Shown: positions 3,576 through 16,562 of the stretch, piece by piece
How the letters are laid out: each line of letters opens with the position of its first letter
Numbering within the stretch: the first letter of the stretch is position 1
Source of the DNA: Thermoleophilia bacterium
GTDB taxonomy: Bacteria > Actinomycetota > Thermoleophilia > Miltoncostaeales > Miltoncostaeaceae
NCBI GenBank assembly: GCA_016780995.1
Contig: JADHKZ010000004.1
Coordinates: 1-37,781 of the forward strand
Length of the DNA stretch: 37,781 bases
Direction of reading: 5' to 3'
Notes under the pieces: generated by a model
Told to the model about the DNA's origin: nothing
The model's input: the letters and a program-made list of their open reading frames with translations, nothing else
The model's database searches: none
Made by a program: the position numbers and the translations under genes

Positions 3576-4043
3576 ATGATGCACCAGCGGAAGCGGATCG
3601 TGATGATCGCGCACGACAACAGGAAGCTCGACATGCTCGAATGGGCGCGCGACCACTACGACGTGCTGCGTCACCACGAGCTGCACGCCACCGGCACCAC
3701 CGGCGGCATCATCGCCGACGACCTGGCACTCGACGTTCATCGGTTCCTGTCAGGCCCCCTGGGCGGCGACCAGCAGGTGGGCGCGGCCCTGGCCGAGGGG
3801 CGGCTCGACGTGGTGATCTTCTTCTGGGATCCGCTTGAGCCCCAGCCCCACGACGTGGACGTGAAGGCCCTGCTGCGCATCGCGGTGGTGCACAACTGCC
3901 CCATCGCGTGCAACCGGGCCACTGCCGACTTCCTGCTGGCCAGCCCCCTCATCAACGAGGACTACCGGCCGGCGGCGTCGCCGGGCGACCTGGCGCCCGA
4001 GGAGCGGCACATCACCGACATCGGGTTGGCCGTCAGGAGCTGA
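3576..4043 (+). CDS. mgsA: Methylglyoxal synthase
   Basis: Converts dihydroxyacetone phosphate to methylglyoxal and phosphate, a cytosolic bypass of lower glycolysis used when phosphate is short. The 155-residue protein matches the family length and shows AHD at 12-14, ATGTTGG at 38-44, GGDQQ at 63-67, FFWDP at 82-86, PHDVDVKALLRI at 91-102 and NRATAD at 113-118. By analogy with the E. coli enzyme, Asp65, His92 and Asp95 correspond to catalytic and substrate-binding residues. The ATG at 3576 was chosen because GGGAGGTGA lies about 6 nt upstream; a GTG at 3567 overlaps that ribosome site and is less likely. The 3' end overlaps the convergent MOSC gene by 11 bp. Confidence 0.95.
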   Translation: MMHQRKRIVMIAHDNRKLDMLEWARDHYDVLRHHELHATGTTGGIIADDLALDVHRFLSGPLGGDQQVGAALAEGRLDVVIFFWDPLEPQPHDVDVKALLRIAVVHNCPIACNRATADFLLASPLINEDYRPAASPGDLAPEERHITDIGLAVRS

Positions 4044-4740
4044 CCCGCACGGGGTCTCCCACGGCGATCCACCCCGGGCGCACCACCCTGCAGCACGCGC
4101 CCACGTGATTGCGGCGCTCGCGGGCCAGCGCCGCGTGGGCGCGGGTGTCGCGCTCGGCGGTATCGGGGTCGCGGCTCAGCACGCCCGACCGCCGGGTGGG
4201 CGCGGTCACCTCCACCTCGGCCACGTCGCCGATGCGCAGGCGGTGACCGATCCAGTCGTCCTCGGGAAATGGATCGGCCCCGTCGGCCTCCACCACCAGG
4301 TTCGGGCGAAAGCGCCGCCGGTCCACGTCCTCGCCCGCCCACTCCGACACCTGCCGGATGGATGACTCGGCCAGCAGCGCCACCGGCTGCGCGGCGTGGG
4401 CACCCGGGGGGGACCGCACCACCTGCACGGGGGCATCGTCGTCGCGGTCCAGCGCGGCGTCCACGGCATGGGCCAGCGCCGGGTCATCCCAGGGCCACTC
4501 CTGGCCGTCCGGGCCGTCCACCACCACGTCATCACCCTGCGCGGCATCGCGGCACCGTGCGCGGAACGTGAGCAGCGCGGGGTTGCGCAGCGCCATGAGG
4601 GCCGCGCCCTCCACGGGGTCGAACGGCATGAACCTCCGGTCGCCCACCACCCCGAGCGGCCCGATGAAGGCCCGGCGCAGGCGCTCGCCGCCCATCGACG
4701 CCACCGGGTAGCGCCAGAGATCGGACACCAGCCCGACCAC
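4033..4740 (-). CDS. MOSC domain-containing protein lacking the usual cysteine
   Basis: A 235-residue protein with the MOSC N-terminal beta-barrel signature (VVGLVSDLWRYPVASMGGE at the start) and a C-terminal MOSC domain (FRPNLVVE, DDWIGHRLRIGDVAEVEV, then PGWIAVGDPVRV). MOSC proteins of the mARC/YcbX type carry molybdenum cofactor-sulfur and reduce N-hydroxylated substrates. Here the segment that normally reads like 'PCxRCxxTTxDPDT' reads 'APTRRSGVLSRDPDT', so both expected cysteines are absent. Activity with the cofactor is therefore doubtful, or a different ligand is used. The GTG at 4740 is preferred because AGGAG overlapping the upstream gene's stop precedes it; a TTG at 4761 would overlap that gene by 14 nt. 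Confidence 0.75.
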   Translation of the reverse strand: MVGLVSDLWRYPVASMGGERLRRAFIGPLGVVGDRRFMPFDPVEGAALMALRNPALLTFRARCRDAAQGDDVVVDGPDGQEWPWDDPALAHAVDAALDRDDDAPVQVVRSPPGAHAAQPVALLAESSIRQVSEWAGEDVDRRRFRPNLVVEADGADPFPEDDWIGHRLRIGDVAEVEVTAPTRRSGVLSRDPDTAERDTRAHAALARERRNHVGACCRVVRPGWIAVGDPVRVSS

Positions 4741-7192: not shown

Positions 7193-8416
7193 TCAGGACG
7201 TTGTCGGCGGCACCAGGGCGTCGAGGGCGTCGCGCACCGCGGCCAGCGGCACGCGCACGGTGCCCGTGCCCACCCAGGCGCCGTCGGTACGACCTGCGAT
7301 GCCCGTGGCGATGGCCGGGCCCTCACCGGCGTCGAGGCACAGGCGCGCGTCGATGGCCACCTCGGCGCAGGAGATGAGCCCCTGGTCGCCCGTCCACGTG
7401 GCCGCGTCGGGGGCGGAGGTGCCGGGGTCGAGGCGGGGATCGTCGGCGATGGGGGCGGGGGCGGTGAACCACGCCCCGGGGAGGCCGGCCAGCATGATCC
7501 CCACGTCGGTGCCGTTCCCCGCCATCGCGGTGACCAGGCTGGACCGCCCCGAGCCGGCGGTGGCCTGCAGCATGGCCCGGGCGGCGGCGGCCATGAGGGG
7601 CATGGCCAGCCGCCCGGTGCCGACCATTGGCGCCAGCGCCGGCACGGCGTCGAGGGCACGCGACGCCAGTCCCGGCATAAGCGCGCTCATGAGCAGGAGC
7701 GACGCCGCGCGCGGCGTGGCCGCGGGCTCGTCGCCCATCGCGGAGGCCGTGCGGAGCATGTCCAGGAGGTCGATGGGGCCTGTGGCGCCCAGGGCCGCGG
7801 CCGCGCCGGGTGCCACGCGGTCGGCGAGCAGCCTCTGGCGCGTGAGCAGCTGCCGGCTGGGTGACCCCGGTGGCAGCCCGTCGCCGGCGCCGTCCGACAT
7901 GGGGGCCCAGGCATCGGCCCCCGTGGCGTCGTCATGCACCGCCCATGCGGCCATGGAGGGGGAGAGGACGCCGCACATGGTGGCGGCCACGCCGTGGCCG
8001 TCGCCGGGCTCCAGGGCGATGGCGCCCTGGGCGATGAGCGCGGCGGCGTCGCCCTGGTCGGGCGCCCAGCCCTCAAGCACCGCCGCGCGCGCCACCTGGG
8101 CACGCATGGCCGGGCCCATGGCGTCCCATTCGCAGGGAGGACCGGCGTGGAGGATGATGCGGCCGTTCATGCCGGGCACCAGGTCGGCGGCGATCCCCGC
8201 GCCCACCAGGTGCGGCCGGGCGGCGTCCAGCCGCTCCAGGGCCTCGCGGTTGCCCTGCTCCACGGCGTCGTCGGCGTATGCCCGGGTGAGCCGCGCCACG
8301 TCGGCGAGGTCGCCGCGTGCCGGGGGAGACCACTCCACCACCAGGGGCTCCACCCCCTGGTCGCGCAGCGACTGCTCCACGCGCGGGGCATCGATGGTGG
8401 CGATGGCCAGTGCCAT
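7193..8416 (-). CDS. DUF1116 family protein (AllG/YlbE-like)
   Basis: A 407-residue protein resembling the DUF1116 family, with the hallmark stretch 'GMNGRIILHAGPPCEWDAM' near residue 82, 'AAVLEGWA' near 111, 'GVLSPSMAAWAVHD' near 148 and 'LLLMSALMPGLASRAL' near 240. In E. coli the DUF1116 protein AllG works with FdrA and AllH in oxamate carbamoyltransferase. Here neither partner is adjacent; an FdrA-like gene lies about 9 kb away. No catalytic residue can be assigned. There is no ribosome site, but TAGCAT lies 6 nt before the ATG, suggesting a leaderless message. The upstream TauE/SafE gene ends 36 bp before it. Confidence 0.7.
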   Translation of the reverse strand: MALAIATIDAPRVEQSLRDQGVEPLVVEWSPPARGDLADVARLTRAYADDAVEQGNREALERLDAARPHLVGAGIAADLVPGMNGRIILHAGPPCEWDAMGPAMRAQVARAAVLEGWAPDQGDAAALIAQGAIALEPGDGHGVAATMCGVLSPSMAAWAVHDDATGADAWAPMSDGAGDGLPPGSPSRQLLTRQRLLADRVAPGAAAALGATGPIDLLDMLRTASAMGDEPAATPRAASLLLMSALMPGLASRALDAVPALAPMVGTGRLAMPLMAAAARAMLQATAGSGRSSLVTAMAGNGTDVGIMLAGLPGAWFTAPAPIADDPRLDPGTSAPDAATWTGDQGLISCAEVAIDARLCLDAGEGPAIATGIAGRTDGAWVGTGTVRVPLAAVRDALDALVPPTTS

Positions 8417-8452
8417 GCGCTGATGCTACGGCGCGCCTCGGAGGCGCCGGGG

Positions 8453-9229
8453 TCAGGTGACCAGGAAGGCCACGCCCACGGCGATGCCGAGCACGATGAC
8501 GCCCACGCGGAACACCGTCTCGTTCAGGTGCTGCACCGTCTTGCCGCCCATCCATCCGCCCGCGTAGGCACCCACGCCCATCAGCACCGCGGCCAGCCAG
8601 TACACCCGTCCGCTGAACGCGAAGAAGAGGGCCGCGGCCCCGTTGGCGCACAGCGACATCAGCAGCTTGAGGGCATTGAGGCGGTTGAGGGTGTCGGTGA
8701 GCATGAGACCGAGGATCGCGATGGTGATGATCCCCAGTCCCGCGCCGAAGTAACCGCCATAGACGGTTGCCACGAACACCGACGCGATGAGCACGGGTCG
8801 GGCCATCTCCCCGGTGTCGCCGCGCGCGCCGAGGGTGGCGCGCCGGAGTGGCCCCTGCACGGCCAGGAGGGCCGTGGCGCCGAAGATGAGCCAGGGCACC
8901 AACTGCTCGAACAACTCCTGGCCGGTGGCCAGCAACAGCGCGGCTCCCGTGACGCCCCCGACGATGGACGTGATGGCCAGCGCGCGCGCGAGGTCGCGGC
9001 GGCCGGCGAAGTCGCGGCGCTGCGCGTAGGCGCCGCCGGCGTAGCCCGGCGACAGTGCCACGGCATTGGTGATGTTGGCGTCGAGGGAGGGGATGCCCAC
9101 GGCGGTGAGCACCGGGAAGCTCACGAGGGTGCCGCCGCCCGCCACCGAGTTGACGAAGCCGCCCGCGACGCCGCCCAGCAGCACGGCGACGAGGGCCCAG
9201 GTTCCGAGGTCCACCACGCGTGCGAGCAT
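8453..9229 (-). CDS. TauE/SafE family sulfite/anion exporter
   Basis: A 258-residue protein with about eight hydrophobic helices and the family's signature 'GFVNSVAGGGTLVSFPVL' near residue 25 and its echo 'YGGYFGAGLGIITIAIL' near 157, one per half of the internal repeat. Members move sulfite, sulfoacetate or other small organic anions across the inner membrane; the substrate here is unknown. The ATG at 9229 is divergent from the MMPL-hydrolase gene, with only 42 bp between the starts. It lies upstream of the DUF1116 gene on the same strand. Confidence 0.88.
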   Translation of the reverse strand: MLARVVDLGTWALVAVLLGGVAGGFVNSVAGGGTLVSFPVLTAVGIPSLDANITNAVALSPGYAGGAYAQRRDFAGRRDLARALAITSIVGGVTGAALLLATGQELFEQLVPWLIFGATALLAVQGPLRRATLGARGDTGEMARPVLIASVFVATVYGGYFGAGLGIITIAILGLMLTDTLNRLNALKLLMSLCANGAAALFFAFSGRVYWLAAVLMGVGAYAGGWMGGKTVQHLNETVFRVGVIVLGIAVGVAFLVT

Positions 9230-9271
9230 GCCACGGCCGGGCGGCCCCGGTCCGCTACGGTGCGCGCCCGG

Positions 9272-12200
9272 ATGGGCGATCCCGCACCCCGCACCACGAT
9301 GCTCGGCGGTCTTGGCCGGTGGTGCGCCCGCCGCCGTTGGTGGGTGCTGGGCGCGTGGGTGGTGGCCCTGGTGGGCCTCACGGTGCTGGGCGGCGCACTG
9401 GGCGGCACGCCGTCGGACGACCTCACCGTGCCGGGTCTCTCCGCCGCCGAGGGCGAGCGGGTGCTGCAGCGGGACTTCCCCGGCCAGGGCCGCGCCGACG
9501 GGCAGGTGGTCATCCGCTCCGAGGGCGCTCCGCTGGCGGTGGCCCCCGCGCGGGCGGCCATCGCCGAGGCCGCCGCCGGCATGCGCCGCATCCCCGGCGT
9601 GGAGTCGGTGGCCGTGCCGGGCGCCCCGGGCACCGTGTCGGCCGATGGCCGTACCGCCCTCATGGGAGTGGAGTGGCGCACGGCCCCCCAGGACCTGGGC
9701 GCGGCCGACCTGGATCGCCTGCGCGATGCCGCCCGCCCCCTGCGTGACGCGGGCCTGGTCGTGGCCTTCGCGGGATCGCCCGCGGTCCAGGCCGAGTCAT
9801 CGGGCACCGACTGGTCGGCCGTCGTGGGCGTGGCGGCGGCAGTGGTGATCCTGCTGCTGGCGTTCGGATCGGTGATCACCATGGCCATCCCGGTGGTGGG
9901 TGCGCTGGTGTCGGTGGGCACCGCGCTGGCCATCCTCACCGTGCTGCAGTCGGTCACCGACGTGAGCGCCGTGGGTCGCACCCTGGCGGTGATGATCGGG
10001 CTCGGTGTGTCGGTGGACTACGCGCTGTTCGTGGTGAGCCGCCACGCGCAGCAGGTGGCCGGCGGCATGGAACTGCGCGAGTCCATCGCGCGGGCCACCG
10101 CCAGCGCCGGGCGCGCGGTGGTGATCGCCGGCACCACGGTGGCCATCGCGGTGCTGGGCCTGGCGGTGGCCGGCATCCCGTTCGTCACGCGCCTGGGCCA
10201 GGCCGCCGCCATCGCCGTGGTGGTGGCCGTGCTGGCCGCCATCACCCTCCTGCCCGCGGCGCTCGCGATCGTGGGCAACGGCCTGGGCCGGTGGCGCCTG
10301 CCGTTCGTGTCGGGTCCACGGCCCGTGGACCTGGATGCCCCGCGCGCTGAGATGCACGGCTTCGCCCGGTGGTCGCTCACGGTCACCCGTCGCCCCTGGC
10401 CCTGGTTGCTGGCGTCGCTCGCGGTGCTGGTGGCGCTGGCTATGCCGGTGTTCTTCATGGAGCTCGGCCAGGTGGATGCGGGTACCGATCCCGAGGGGTC
10501 CACCACGCGCGAGGCCTACCACCTGATCGCCACGGGATTCGGTCCCGGGTTCAATGGCCCCGTGGAGGTGGTCCTGGAGGGGCCGCAGGCCAAGGCGCGC
10601 GCGCAGGACGTGGCCCAGCGGGCACGCGACCTGGCCGGCGTGGTGTACGCGGCCCCGCCGGTGCCGGCCCCCCGCGCCGACGCCGCCCTGGTGACCGTGG
10701 TGACCGCCGCGGCGCCGTCCAGCCCGCGCACCACTGAGGTGGTGGAGAGGCTGGCGCAGCGCCTGCGCCCGGTGGCCGGCCCCGGCACGCGGGTGTACGC
10801 CACCGGCCCCACGGCCGTGGGGGTGGACCTGTCGCAGCGGGTGGCGTCGCGCCTGCCGTGGTTCATCGCAGCGGTCATCCTGATCTCGTTCGTGCTGCTG
10901 ATGATCGAGTTCCGGTCGCTGCTGGTGCCGCTGCAGGCGGCCCTGATGAACCTGCTGTCGGTGGGCGCGGCCTTCGGCGTGGTGGTGGGCATCTTCCAGT
11001 GGGGAATCCTGCGGGAGCAGATCGGCGTGCCGGAGGCCGTGGCCATCGAGGCCTGGGTGCCCATGATGATGTTCGCCATCCTGTTCGGGCTGTCGATGGA
11101 CTACGAGGTGTTCCTGTTGTCGCGCGTGCGGGAGGCATGGCGCGAGACCGGCGACCCGCACCGCTCCGTTGCGCTGGGCCTGGCCTCCACCGCGCGGGTC
11201 ATCACCGCGGCCGCGCTGATCATGGTGAGCGTGTTCCTGGCGTTCGTCATCACCGACGACGTGGTGGTGAAGATGCTGGGAATCGGGCTGGCCACGGCCG
11301 TGCTGGTGGATGCCACGATCATCCGCCTGGTGCTGGCGCCCGCGCTGCTGAGCCTGTTCGGGCGGTGGAACTGGTGGCTGCCGGGGGGGGACAATGCGGC
11401 CATGAGCCCCGCCGAAGAGCCCTCGGGCATCGCCCCCCGCCCCGACCGCGTGTCGGTGCGCACGGGCGCGCGGCCCCACACGGAGTTCGGTCATGACGAC
11501 GTGGACGCGGACGCCGAGCTCGTGGTCATCCGCACCGACGACCACAAGCACTGGGACGGGCTCCTCATGCGCCCGCGCGATGATCGGGGCGGCCGCGCGG
11601 GCACCCTGGTGATCATCGTGCACGGCTCGCTTGGCAACTACATGGGGGGCGTACCGCGCCGGATGGCGTTCGAGCTGGCCCACCACGGCTACGCAGCGCT
11701 GTCCATCAACACGCGCATGGCCAACTTCGGCGTGGTGTACGGCGGCGGGCTGTTCGACGAGACCCCCCGTGACCTCGCCGGCGCCATGGACCTGGCGCGC
11801 GAGCGCGGATTCGAGCGCGTGGTGCTGATGGGCTACAGCCTGGGCGCCAGCATCGTCACGCACTACCAGGCGCTGCGCCACCCGCCCGAGGTGGTGGGCT
11901 TGTGCACTCTGGCGCACCCGTGGAGCCTGCCCGAGTCGATGCGTGCGCGGTGGACCCGCCTGCGCGCGCGGCCCTCGTACACCGAGGTGGCGCGCATGGC
12001 GCTGCGGGCGGGCGTGGACCGCGACGGGTCGGATGACGTGGTGATCGTGCACCGCGGCGCCGGGCCCACCGACTCGCCGTACGACGCCGAGGCGTGGTCG
12101 CTTCGCTGCTGGTGGCAGTGCCGGGGCCCGGAATCGCGCAACCCGGTGTCGGTGGACCGCATCCGTGACGTGGGCGTGCCCGTGGCGCTGATTCAGGCGG

Positions 12201-13288
12201 GAGACGACCCCGTCTTGCCGGGGGACGATGGCGACAACCTGGCCGAGGCCGCGCGGGCAGCTGGCGTGCCCGTGCACCTGGAGCATGTCCCCGGGGCCGA
12301 CCACACGTTCTGGGGGATGGTGCCGCAGGTGGCCGAGCGAGCGGTGGCGTGGTTGGACGCCCTGCCGCAGCAGCGCCCGGCCCCGGTGCCGCCGCGCGGG
12401 GCGGGGTCGGGCACCGTGCGGCTGGTGACCATCCGGGGCGCGGATGGCAGCCTGCACGACGGCATCCTCGAGCGCCATGCCGACGCCACCGAGGCCCGCG
12501 CGGCGGAGACCGGCCGGCGCACGGCGATCGTGCACCTGCACGGCAACCAGGGCAACCTGAGCGTGGGGGCGCTGCGGTTCCTGCGCGCCCCCGTGGCCGG
12601 CTTGGGGCTGCCCATCCTCACCATCGACACGCGCATCGGCAACGTGTCGCAGTTGTTTGGCACGGCCGTGCTGGAGGACGTGCTGGACGACGTGCGCGCG
12701 GCCGCTGCGTGGCTGGCGGGGGAGGGATACGACCACCTGCTGGTGTCGGGCTACTCGCTCGGCGCCACCGCGGCGTTCTACTGCGCCGCCCACGACCTGG
12801 GCCTCCCCCTTGTGGGCGCCGCGGGCCTGGGCACCGCGTGGAGCCTTCCCGAGTCGAGCCGCGCGCGCATGGATCGCTGCGGCGCCGCGCCCTCATATGA
12901 GGAACTGGTGGAGCTGTGCCGTCCGTACGCCGACGTGGAACCCGAGGACGACATGAGCCTGGTGATCCATCGCATGTACCTGCCCGATGACGCCCCGCAC
13001 GCGGCGGGCGTGTACACGGCCCGCACGTGGTGGCACAGCCGGGGGCCCGACTCGGACGCGGCCAAGGCCTACCTGCACATCGGCCGCGTGCCCGCTCCCG
13101 TCCTGCTGGTGCAGGGGACGGACGACGTGATCGTGGCGCCGGACGACGCCGACCGCCTGGCCGACCGTGCCCGCGCCGATGGCCACGCGGACGTCACCCT
13201 GCAGGTGCTCCCCGGCGTGGGCCACGACTTCGGCGACCACGACGCCACCTTCGGCGCCCTTCGCGACTGGCTGCTGCGGGTGGGCTAG
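9272..13288 (+). CDS. MMPL transporter fused to two tandem alpha/beta hydrolases
   Basis: One open frame of 1338 codons. Residues 1 to about 705 are an MMPL/RND transporter with two halves, carrying GVSVDYALFVVSRHAQ and GLSMDYEVFLLSRVRE, and ending in the typical GRWNWWLP. From about 750 to 1035 is an alpha/beta hydrolase with GYSLG (nucleophile Ser856), DD at 978-979 and GADH (His1011). From about 1055 to 1338 is a second hydrolase with GYSLG (Ser1162), DD at 1284-1285 and GVGH (His1318). The two share WSLPESxRAR, PSY and RGP(E/D)S, so they arose by duplication. The fusion point is a G8 tract at 11383-11390. One G fewer would stop the transporter at a TGA overlapping the ATG at 11402, so this may be two genes. 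The transporter may export a lipid-like substrate that the hydrolases process. ATG 9299 is an alternative start. TACGGT lies 10 nt upstream. Confidence 0.8.
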   Translation: MGDPAPRTTMLGGLGRWCARRRWWVLGAWVVALVGLTVLGGALGGTPSDDLTVPGLSAAEGERVLQRDFPGQGRADGQVVIRSEGAPLAVAPARAAIAEAAAGMRRIPGVESVAVPGAPGTVSADGRTALMGVEWRTAPQDLGAADLDRLRDAARPLRDAGLVVAFAGSPAVQAESSGTDWSAVVGVAAAVVILLLAFGSVITMAIPVVGALVSVGTALAILTVLQSVTDVSAVGRTLAVMIGLGVSVDYALFVVSRHAQQVAGGMELRESIARATASAGRAVVIAGTTVAIAVLGLAVAGIPFVTRLGQAAAIAVVVAVLAAITLLPAALAIVGNGLGRWRLPFVSGPRPVDLDAPRAEMHGFARWSLTVTRRPWPWLLASLAVLVALAMPVFFMELGQVDAGTDPEGSTTREAYHLIATGFGPGFNGPVEVVLEGPQAKARAQDVAQRARDLAGVVYAAPPVPAPRADAALVTVVTAAAPSSPRTTEVVERLAQRLRPVAGPGTRVYATGPTAVGVDLSQRVASRLPWFIAAVILISFVLLMIEFRSLLVPLQAALMNLLSVGAAFGVVVGIFQWGILREQIGVPEAVAIEAWVPMMMFAILFGLSMDYEVFLLSRVREAWRETGDPHRSVALGLASTARVITAAALIMVSVFLAFVITDDVVVKMLGIGLATAVLVDATIIRLVLAPALLSLFGRWNWWLPGGDNAAMSPAEEPSGIAPRPDRVSVRTGARPHTEFGHDDVDADAELVVIRTDDHKHWDGLLMRPRDDRGGRAGTLVIIVHGSLGNYMGGVPRRMAFELAHHGYAALSINTRMANFGVVYGGGLFDETPRDLAGAMDLARERGFERVVLMGYSLGASIVTHYQALRHPPEVVGLCTLAHPWSLPESMRARWTRLRARPSYTEVARMALRAGVDRDGSDDVVIVHRGAGPTDSPYDAEAWSLRCWWQCRGPESRNPVSVDRIRDVGVPVALIQAGDDPVLPGDDGDNLAEAARAAGVPVHLEHVPGADHTFWGMVPQVAERAVAWLDALPQQRPAPVPPRGAGSGTVRLVTIRGADGSLHDGILERHADATEARAAETGRRTAIVHLHGNQGNLSVGALRFLRAPVAGLGLPILTIDTRIGNVSQLFGTAVLEDVLDDVRAAAAWLAGEGYDHLLVSGYSLGATAAFYCAAHDLGLPLVGAAGLGTAWSLPESSRARMDRCGAAPSYEELVELCRPYADVEPEDDMSLVIHRMYLPDDAPHAAGVYTARTWWHSRGPDSDAAKAYLHIGRVPAPVLLVQGTDDVIVAPDDADRLADRARADGHADVTLQVLPGVGHDFGDHDATFGALRDWLLRVG
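11383..11390 (+). other. G8 homopolymer at the MMPL-hydrolase junction
   Basis: Eight consecutive G in codons GGG-GGG-GAC follow the natural transporter C-terminus. Removing one G makes the frame end at TGA 11403-11405, overlapping ATG 11402-11404 of the hydrolase part. This is the same ATGA arrangement used between many genes in the window. It may be a sequencing error, a phase-variation tract or a slippage site. Confidence 0.7.
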
Positions 13289-13899: not shown

Positions 13900-16006
13900 A
13901 GCGCACGTCCGGGAGGATCCGGTCGAGCCACCGGGGCTGCCACCACGCCCACTTGCCCACCAGGCGCAGCGCCACCGGAACGATGAGCAGCCTCACCAGG
14001 AGGGCGTCCAGCAGGACGGCCACCCCGAGGATGATGCCCATCTCCTTGGGCGGCAGCGGCCCGGAGAGGGCGAACGTGAAGAACACGGCCACCATCACCG
14101 CCGCAGCGGCCAGGATGACCCGGCCCGAGTGCGCGAGGCCGCCGACCATGGCGTCCTTGGCATCGTGCGACCGGTCCCAGTGCTCGCGCGCCGAGGACAG
14201 CAGGAACACCGTGTAGTCCATCGAGATCGCGAAGATCATCGCGAAGAAGAAGACGGGTCCCCAGGCGTCGATGAAGCCCTGTGACTCGAAGCCCAGCAGC
14301 CCCGCCCCCCAGCCGTCCTGGAAGATGAGGCGGGCCACGCCGAACGCGGCGCCCACGGCCAGGAGGTTGGTGATCACGCCGATGGCGGCCACCACCGGGG
14401 CCTGGAAGGCCACCAGCAGCAGCAGGAAGCCCAGCACCAGCACGATGCCGATGACGATTGGCGTGTAGGTGCTGAGCGCCGAGGACAGGTCGGCCTGCTC
14501 GGCAGCCGCGCCGCCGATGAGCACACCGGCAGGCAGAGTGGTGCGCAGCCTGTCGATGGTCTCCGCGGTGGCCGTGGTGGACGGTCCCGTGGTGGGCACC
14601 GCCTGCACCATCGCCAGCCCGCCCCCGCCCGGCATGGGCGGCATGGCCGCGGCCACGCCGGCGTCGGAGGCGACCGACTTCTGCACCGCCGCCATCTCGC
14701 CGGCCGGGCCGACGATCTGCAGGGTGCCCGGCGCGCCCTCGCCGAACGCCTCGCTCACCAGTGCGTAGCCCTGTCGCGAGCCGTCGTCCTCGGGCACCAC
14801 CGTGATGGACGGCATGCCCGTCTTCAGGCCGAGGACCGGAATGGCCAGGATGATCAGGGCGATCACGGCGGGCGCCCCGAACAGCAGGGGCTTGCTCCAC
14901 AGCCTCTGGCCCCAGCGCTCGAACCTGGCAGAGCGGTGCTCGCCGGTGTGCGCCCACTTGAGAGCCCCCTTGTCCACCCGCGAGCCCAGCTTCGCCAGCA
15001 CCGCCGGCAGCAGGGTGAGGGTGGCCAGCAGGATGAAGACCACCGAGATCATGATGCCGAGCGCCATCGAGCGGAACGCGGGGCTGGGCACGATGAGCAC
15101 CGCGGACAGCGAGATGAGCACGGTCAGGCCCGAGAACATCACCGCCTTGCCCGCGGTATCCATCGTCTCGGTCGTCGCGTCGAGCGGGCTCCGGCCGGAT
15201 CCGAACAGCGCTCCGCGGAAGCGGTGCACGATGAACAGCGCGTAGTCGATGCCCAGCGCGAGCGCGAACATGAGGGCGAAGTTCATCGCCCAGATCGACA
15301 CGTCGAACGCCAGGGTGGTGAGGTACAGCGCGCCGGCGGTGGCCACCAGGCCCAGGATGGTGAGCAGCAGGGGGAGCCCCGCGGCCACCAGGGCACCGAA
15401 TGCGAGCAGCAGGATGACCATGGTGACCGGCCATGAGAGGAGCTCGCTCTTGACCATGGCCGAGCGATTGGCCTCGTTGAAGTCGGACCACATGCCTGAC
15501 GCGCCGGTGAGGTACACCGACACGCCGTCCGCCCCGTCCTCCGCGAGCGGGGCCTTCAGGCGGTCGGCCGCGCGCACCATCTCGGTGGCGTTCTCGGCGG
15601 CTCCCGCCATCACGATGGCCGTGCGGCCATCCTGCGAGATGGTCTGCCCCGGCATGGGCGGCACCACCTGAGACACGGCGCCGTCGGCCTCGAGCGTCGT
15701 CGTGGCCTTGGTCACCGCCGCCTGGAACGCCGGCGACGACACGGTCTTGTCGTCGGAGTGCACCACCACCATCAGTGCGTTGGAGGAGTTGCCCCCGAAG
15801 TTGTCCTGGATCAGTTGGCGTGCCTGCACCGACTGCGATCCGGTGTCCTCCCAGCCCGCGCCCGACAGCGACGTCTCCACGCGCGGGGCCAGGAAGCCCA
15901 GCCCCAGTGCGATGACCACCCAGGCGGCCACCACCCACCTGAAGTGCGTGGCCGACCAGCGGCCCAGGCGCCCGATGGGCCCCACGCTCGGCATGGGATC
16001 GGTCAT
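13889..16006 (-). CDS. MMPL (RND) family transporter
   Basis: A 705-residue membrane protein with the MMPL layout: one helix near residue 23, an extracytoplasmic loop, a helical block with FALALGIDYALFIVHRFRG, a second loop, and a second block with FAISMDYTVFLLSSARE. It ends with GKWAWWQPRWLDRILP. MMPL proteins export lipids or hydrophobic compounds using the proton gradient. The ATG at 16006 is preferred because AGGGGTG precedes it and it forms an ATGA overlap with the end of the DUF2892 frame. An upstream extension to 16084 would run through that frame. It belongs to the ArsR-controlled operon and is a distinct paralogue of the MMPL module at 9.3-11.4 kb. Confidence 0.92.
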   Translation of the reverse strand: MTDPMPSVGPIGRLGRWSATHFRWVVAAWVVIALGLGFLAPRVETSLSGAGWEDTGSQSVQARQLIQDNFGGNSSNALMVVVHSDDKTVSSPAFQAAVTKATTTLEADGAVSQVVPPMPGQTISQDGRTAIVMAGAAENATEMVRAADRLKAPLAEDGADGVSVYLTGASGMWSDFNEANRSAMVKSELLSWPVTMVILLLAFGALVAAGLPLLLTILGLVATAGALYLTTLAFDVSIWAMNFALMFALALGIDYALFIVHRFRGALFGSGRSPLDATTETMDTAGKAVMFSGLTVLISLSAVLIVPSPAFRSMALGIMISVVFILLATLTLLPAVLAKLGSRVDKGALKWAHTGEHRSARFERWGQRLWSKPLLFGAPAVIALIILAIPVLGLKTGMPSITVVPEDDGSRQGYALVSEAFGEGAPGTLQIVGPAGEMAAVQKSVASDAGVAAAMPPMPGGGGLAMVQAVPTTGPSTTATAETIDRLRTTLPAGVLIGGAAAEQADLSSALSTYTPIVIGIVLVLGFLLLLVAFQAPVVAAIGVITNLLAVGAAFGVARLIFQDGWGAGLLGFESQGFIDAWGPVFFFAMIFAISMDYTVFLLSSAREHWDRSHDAKDAMVGGLAHSGRVILAAAAVMVAVFFTFALSGPLPPKEMGIILGVAVLLDALLVRLLIVPVALRLVGKWAWWQPRWLDRILPDVRFGH

Positions 16007-16221
16007 CGCGCGCACCCCTGGAGGCCGAAGAGCTTCCTCATCACCAGCGACGACGGGCAGTCGCCGAATGCGACGTACATCCACTGGGATGCCCCCACGA
16101 ACAGCGTGAGGATGAGGAACTACGGACTCACGAACGCGGCCAGCAGTGCGCTCGCGATGGTGACGGTGCCCGCCATGAGGAACAGGACCCGCTCAAGCGG
16201 CCAGCGACCTGTGGTGCTCAA
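16003..16221 (-). pseudogene. DUF2892-family small membrane protein interrupted by an amber codon
   Basis: The frame reads TTG, then STTGRWPLERVLFLMAGTVTI, continues to FVSP, and hits TAG at 16120-16122 (codon 34). It then continues as FLILTLFVGASQWMYVAFGDCPSSLVMRKLFGLQGCAR to TGA at 16003. The pattern is that of DUF2892 proteins (rhodanese YgaP membrane domain), where a Trp usually sits in 'SPWFLxLT'; TGG to TAG is one change. Both ends are perfectly coupled: the TTG overlaps the ArsR stop (TTGA) with AGGGGAGG upstream, and the TGA overlaps the MMPL ATG. The rest is intact, so it is a fresh mutation, an error, or a read-through codon. Confidence 0.8.
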
Positions 16222-16562
16222 CGAATGACCTCCCCTGATACGAGGGATTGGAGTTCGGCCAGGTGGCGCTCGATCCCGCCGCACACGTGCTCGCACATCT
16301 CGAACACGCTCTCGTCGGCGATCGAGTGCAGCACGGCGTTGCCGTGCCGCTCCCGGCTCACGATGCCCGCGCCATGCAGCAGCGCGAGGTGCTTCGACAC
16401 GTTCTGCTGCGAGGAGCCCAGGGCCTCGGCCAGCACGCCCACGGCCCGGGGGCCGTCGCGCAGCTGGTCGAGGATCCGGATGCGCATGGGTTCCCCCAGC
16501 ACCTTGAAGCGCTCGGCGATGAGGTCGGCGAGCGGGTCGGGTATCGGGTGGGGAATGGCCAT
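16218..16562 (-). CDS. ArsR-family winged-helix repressor
   Basis: A 114-residue regulator. 'LADLIAERFKVLGEPMRIRILDQLRDGPRAVGVLAEALGSSQQNVSKHLALLHGAGIVSRERHGNAVLHSI' gives the full ArsR fold, with the recognition helix around SSQQNVSKHLALL and the beta-wing around SRERHGNAVLHS. The classic ELCVCDL metal site is absent. A CEHVC pair near the C-terminus (residues about 89-93) could sense thiols, oxidants or metals. The ATG at 16562 was chosen because GAGGAG precedes it. It leads a coupled operon with DUF2892, MMPL and methyltransferase genes. A dyad within its own promoter suggests autoregulation. Confidence 0.9.
   Translation of the reverse strand: MAIPHPIPDPLADLIAERFKVLGEPMRIRILDQLRDGPRAVGVLAEALGSSQQNVSKHLALLHGAGIVSRERHGNAVLHSIADESVFEMCEHVCGGIERHLAELQSLVSGEVIR

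Follow-up and report, generated by a model that had tools for sequence, protein, structure and literature searches.

An in-frame TAG in the YgaP-like membrane protein gene of an ArsR-MMPL operon from a Thermoleophilia bacterium

In this Thermoleophilia genome, the middle gene of a conserved three-gene operon, which encodes a small YgaP-like transmembrane protein (DUF2892), is interrupted by a single in-frame TAG at a position where its homologues have tryptophan. We regard the stop as probably an ordinary nonsense allele of this gene, either recent or confined to the strain. The window referred to below is the whole stretch of DNA analyzed, 37,781 nucleotides in length.

The interrupted gene and its operon

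The operon lies on the minus strand, a point absent from the preliminary description of this DNA, whose coordinates and account of the gene are correct. Gene order is ArsR, then DUF2892, then MMPL; this order and the profile matches agree with the placement first proposed, and the ArsR and MMPL frames are both open. The features of the locus are as follows.

16562-16218, minus strand: ArsR/SmtB-type regulator, 114 aa, intact (open frame and profile matches)
16229..16235, minus strand: Shine-Dalgarno-like stretch GGGGAGG before the TTG start of the DUF2892 gene (sequence)
16221-16003, minus strand: YgaP-like transmembrane (DUF2892) gene, 72 codons plus TGA, with a single in-frame TAG
16122-16120, minus strand: in-frame TAG, codon 34 of 72 of the DUF2892 gene (sequence and homologues)
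16030..16119, minus strand: the 90 nt immediately after the TAG, with a more stable fold than shuffled sequences
16015..16019, minus strand: Shine-Dalgarno-like stretch AGGGG, 8 nt before the MMPL ATG (sequence)
16006-13889, minus strand: MMPL-family exporter, 705 aa, intact (Pfam MMPL, 246.4 bits)

The regulator matches Pfam HTH_20 and HTH_5 and scores 79.4 bits against NCBIfam HTH_metalloreg (cut-off, 55). Its stop codon and the DUF2892 start TTG (16221-16219) overlap in a TTGA tetranucleotide, while the terminal TGA of that gene (16005-16003) overlaps the MMPL ATG (16006-16004) in an ATGA; these are the perfect start/stop overlaps reported earlier for both ends. The GGGGAGG at the TTG start recurs in six of seven same-genus relatives, the remaining one having GAGGAGG.

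Two other MMPL-related frames came to our attention. On the plus strand of the window, 7934-13288 is a single open frame of 1,784 aa in which an MMPL domain precedes one of the alpha/beta-hydrolase type (Hydrolase_4); the matching stretch has stops in the sister genome G001, so the frame may represent a fused gene or a run-on. Separately, an internal TGA appeared in an MMPL paralogue of four relatives. The two cases that were opened proved ordinary, one TGA lying just upstream of the true start and the other case having no stop inside the local alignment.

The small protein is probably a member of the YgaP-like family. The family profile matches the transmembrane domain of Escherichia coli YgaP (2mpn) at an E value of 0.00057, and 12 of 18 aligned family members match PF11127 (YgaP-like TM) at 0.01 or better. 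Individual scores vary around the PF11127 cut-off of 25.3 bits: the window copy reaches 18.1 bits, below it, and the orthologue in G001 (72% identity) 27.7 bits, above it, while the orthologue in G012 (79% identity) has no match at an E value of 0.001. The gene is single copy in this genome (one match in the profile search). Among the matches listed for literature on ArsR and MMPL, titles and abstract openings make no mention of DUF2892.

To compare the TAG with its homologues, the small gene was searched by HMM in 399 genomes of the class Thermoleophilia, giving 106 matches in 98 genomes, 105 of them without an internal stop; the sole internal stop is the TAG of the copy described here. An in-frame stop found once among otherwise intact orthologues, the mark of a nonsense pseudogene, is thus what we observe (1 of 106 matches). 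Residues were read in the best-scoring 30 of the 106 matches (this genome and 29 others), and the TAG column is Trp in all 29 of the others. This agrees with a DNA search covering 61 genomes, in which 17 of 17 alignable non-self homologues have Trp there. The claim that TAG replaces the family's usual Trp therefore holds, and homologues do not end at the site but run past it. We did not count the Trp at 81 of 81 loci found with a peptide pattern, as that pattern itself contains Trp and is not independent. Before and after the TAG, the reading frame can be aligned over its full length with 72-codon genes from the same genus (72 to 79% identity), and such homology on both sides excludes a chance open frame.

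The surroundings of the gene are conserved as well. Among the 30 best-scoring loci of the HMM search, this locus included, MMPL lies downstream in all 30 and ArsR upstream in 27; here the two genes immediately flank the small gene, ArsR upstream and MMPL downstream, and all three share a strand. The pattern search (81 matches, 80 of them further loci) found both neighbors at 27, MMPL alone at 13, and neither at 41. Within the genus, the small gene occurs in 8 of 20 genomes and is intact in 7 of these 8. An orthologous MMPL (83 to 88% identity to the window MMPL) is present in the same eight genomes (G000, which is this one, G001, G003, G006, G007, G011, G012, and G015), implying joint gain or loss of the two genes. 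Of the eight, only this genome retains the exporter while its partner is interrupted. The small gene is an ordinary component of a conserved operon of three genes, encoding ArsR, a YgaP-like two-helix membrane protein, and MMPL.

The break falls between the two halves of the domain, and in-frame GTG (codon 42) and ATG (codon 48) codons lie 3' of the TAG. These features would suit a split gene, in which the first half ends at TAG and a downstream restart gives a second one-helix peptide, with pairing of the two peptides and coupling to MMPL both kept. Against it, inspection by eye found neither codon to be preceded at the usual spacing by a good Shine-Dalgarno-like stretch, none of the 106 matches is a split relative, and a split would sacrifice residues near the break that the family conserves. 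We consider such a split very doubtful.

Decoding of TAG in the genome

Genome-wide recoding of TAG was considered and rejected. RF1 is present and intact (449.8 bits; cut-off, 423.25), and TAG is a frequent terminator, closing 57 of 135 homology-supported open reading frames (ORFs) in the sampled stretches, against 74 for TGA and 4 for TAA. The best PylS match reaches only 22 bits against a cut-off of 178.15, and weak matches of this kind are also found in most control genomes. A search for a suppressor tRNA, as suggested by the preliminary description, returned none: the whole assembly (96.29% complete) has 46 Rfam tRNA matches, of which 45 were called with an anticodon, and no CUA anticodon is among them. 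The 46th match was examined as a candidate suppressor and dismissed, being a partial 3'-half copy of tRNA-Thr(CGU). General amber suppression is very unlikely; it would lengthen a large fraction of the proteins encoded here.

This partial tRNA copy lies on contig C86 at 133-192, about 3.9 kb before the intact gene (4013-4084), an arrangement that resembles the ends of an integrated element. Inspection by eye of the intervening sequence showed ORFs resembling multicopper oxidase and pentapeptide-repeat proteins, and no integrase.

Interruptions elsewhere were surveyed by comparing ORFs of the sister genome G001 with stretches of this genome, and the reverse. Because antisense ORFs gave false TAG "interruptions" at Tyr codons in the unfiltered comparison, we kept only stretches whose GC content by codon position followed the pattern of real genes, which left 140 of 167 in this genome and 137 of 169 in the sister. 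The survey covers about 30% of the genome and undersamples short genes; the target gene itself was missed because the sister's ORF call had merged it with an upstream out-of-frame stretch. Within the 140 matched stretches (42,047 codons), there is no other TAG with conserved sequence on both sides. The in-frame stops left over number 8 in this genome (3 TAG and 5 TGA) and 11 in the sister. Two of the leftover TAG codons are at match ends and one is upstream of the ArsR start, while all five TGA codons fall within the first 35 columns; we judged these stops by eye to be match edges. Frameshift counts, at 15 candidate sites when this genome was the subject and 7 when the sister was, were set aside because we judged them to be dominated by the same spurious ORFs.

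Sequence and RNA folding beyond the stop

Coding constraint was compared before and after the TAG. Relative to six same-genus copies, codons 35 to 72 have a pN of 0.10 to 0.21 and a pS of 0.38 to 0.50, and codons 2 to 33 a pN of 0.17 to 0.20 and a pS of 0.40 to 0.63, values which resemble those of pairs of intact relatives at like distance. No second stop or frameshift is found in the gene against the same six copies. As the part after the TAG has not decayed, the break is recent, or is an error, or is tolerated through readthrough, three situations for which 38 codons are too few to separate.

The second of these supposes that the genome is a metagenome-assembled genome (MAG) whose consensus contains a wrong base or a minority allele, the organism's own gene being intact. 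In the assembly, it would look identical to a nonsense allele. One substitution would be enough, and apart from the TAG the gene is whole and under constraint and retains both overlaps. The genome is in 106 contigs at 96.29% completeness. Among assemblies of the genus, several are MAGs, with contig coverage near 2 to 4 in some cases, and the contigs together with these MAGs suggest the same status for this genome. In contrast, the lack of another convincing internal stop in the 140 surveyed stretches, from about 30% of the genome and without the target gene, indicates that stop-making errors are infrequent. We rate an error as unlikely, though clearly the first of the alternatives to be weighed.

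Programmed or tolerated amber readthrough would have an amino acid inserted at the TAG often enough for full-length protein and for coupling to MMPL. The persistence of constraint after the TAG is consistent with this, as is the folding of the adjacent RNA. For the 90 nt that immediately follow the TAG, the predicted folding energy is -40.2 kcal/mol (z, -2.88), a value matched by 1 of 200 shuffled sequences; a separate set of shuffles gives these 90 nt a z of -3.1, and in an operon-wide scan 1 of 87 windows is as low as -2.88. However, the fold is weaker or lacking in the matching stretch of four relatives, none of which has the stop (z of -1.60, 0.01, -0.48, and 0.23), and no stop occupies the TAG column in any of the 29 other copies read. 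A fold beginning right at a stop would also be covered by the ribosome, which we count against readthrough, along with the absence of a CUA tRNA, the subthreshold PylS match, the presence of RF1, and the common use of TAG as a terminator. We hold readthrough to be highly unlikely, placing it behind an assembly error and ahead of a split gene. As the fold was looked for once the stop was known, and is present in one sequence only, it is a weak lead and not evidence of readthrough.

A related idea is a leaky stop specific to this genome, in which RNA structure directly 3' of the TAG would let some ribosomes pass without a suppressor tRNA, so that the membrane partner and, via the ATGA overlap, MMPL would be made at a reduced, tunable level. 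We consider it the least likely of the readings. If true, this would be an uncommon instance of readthrough within a translationally coupled operon. The original proposal that the break is recent or the codon read through is thus favored in its first part, by the undecayed 3' portion and the unique stop, and not in its second, beyond the weak RNA-folding signal.

Consequences for the exporter and relation to known systems

A nonsense allele remains our preferred explanation, with three points against it. Constraint after the TAG is equally expected under readthrough, the fold 3' of the TAG is unusually good in this genome, and the linkage to MMPL at 30 of 30 loci suggests that loss should be costly. 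As assembled, the single nonsense codon would leave a 33-residue fragment, ending before the second half of the protein. This fragment is presumably inactive and the membrane partner would be lost, with ArsR and MMPL remaining open. MMPL would probably still be translated through a Shine-Dalgarno-like site of its own, though perhaps in smaller amounts. With the AGGGG ahead of its ATG, MMPL does not have to rely entirely on ribosomes that come from the small gene, and most same-genus relatives likewise have GGAGGG or AGGG-like stretches ahead of the MMPL ATG. Translational coupling of MMPL to the small gene is inferred from the ATGA overlap, and it is plausible that the TAG lowers MMPL translation by this route.

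An ordinary nonsense allele would in itself be of little consequence. The analysis nevertheless identifies the small YgaP-like protein as one that often accompanies an MMPL exporter in Thermoleophilia, and this genome would offer a natural test of the exporter working without it.

The locus can be set beside three known systems. With amber suppression and TAG recoding, which involve a CUA tRNA or the pyrrolysine system, it shares an in-frame TAG with conserved flanks; unlike them, it is found in a genome with RF1 and frequent TAG terminators, with no CUA tRNA and no PylS over the cut-off. With bacterial pseudogenes made by a single nonsense codon, it shares one in-frame stop in a conserved gene and no second lesion, whereas here loss of function is predicted and the stop is that of the assembled sequence. 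Finally, the likeness to YgaP lies in the transmembrane domain (PF11127; solved domain 2MPN), while the protein described here is a stand-alone protein of 72 aa without YgaP's rhodanese domain, and the window copy in addition carries the TAG.
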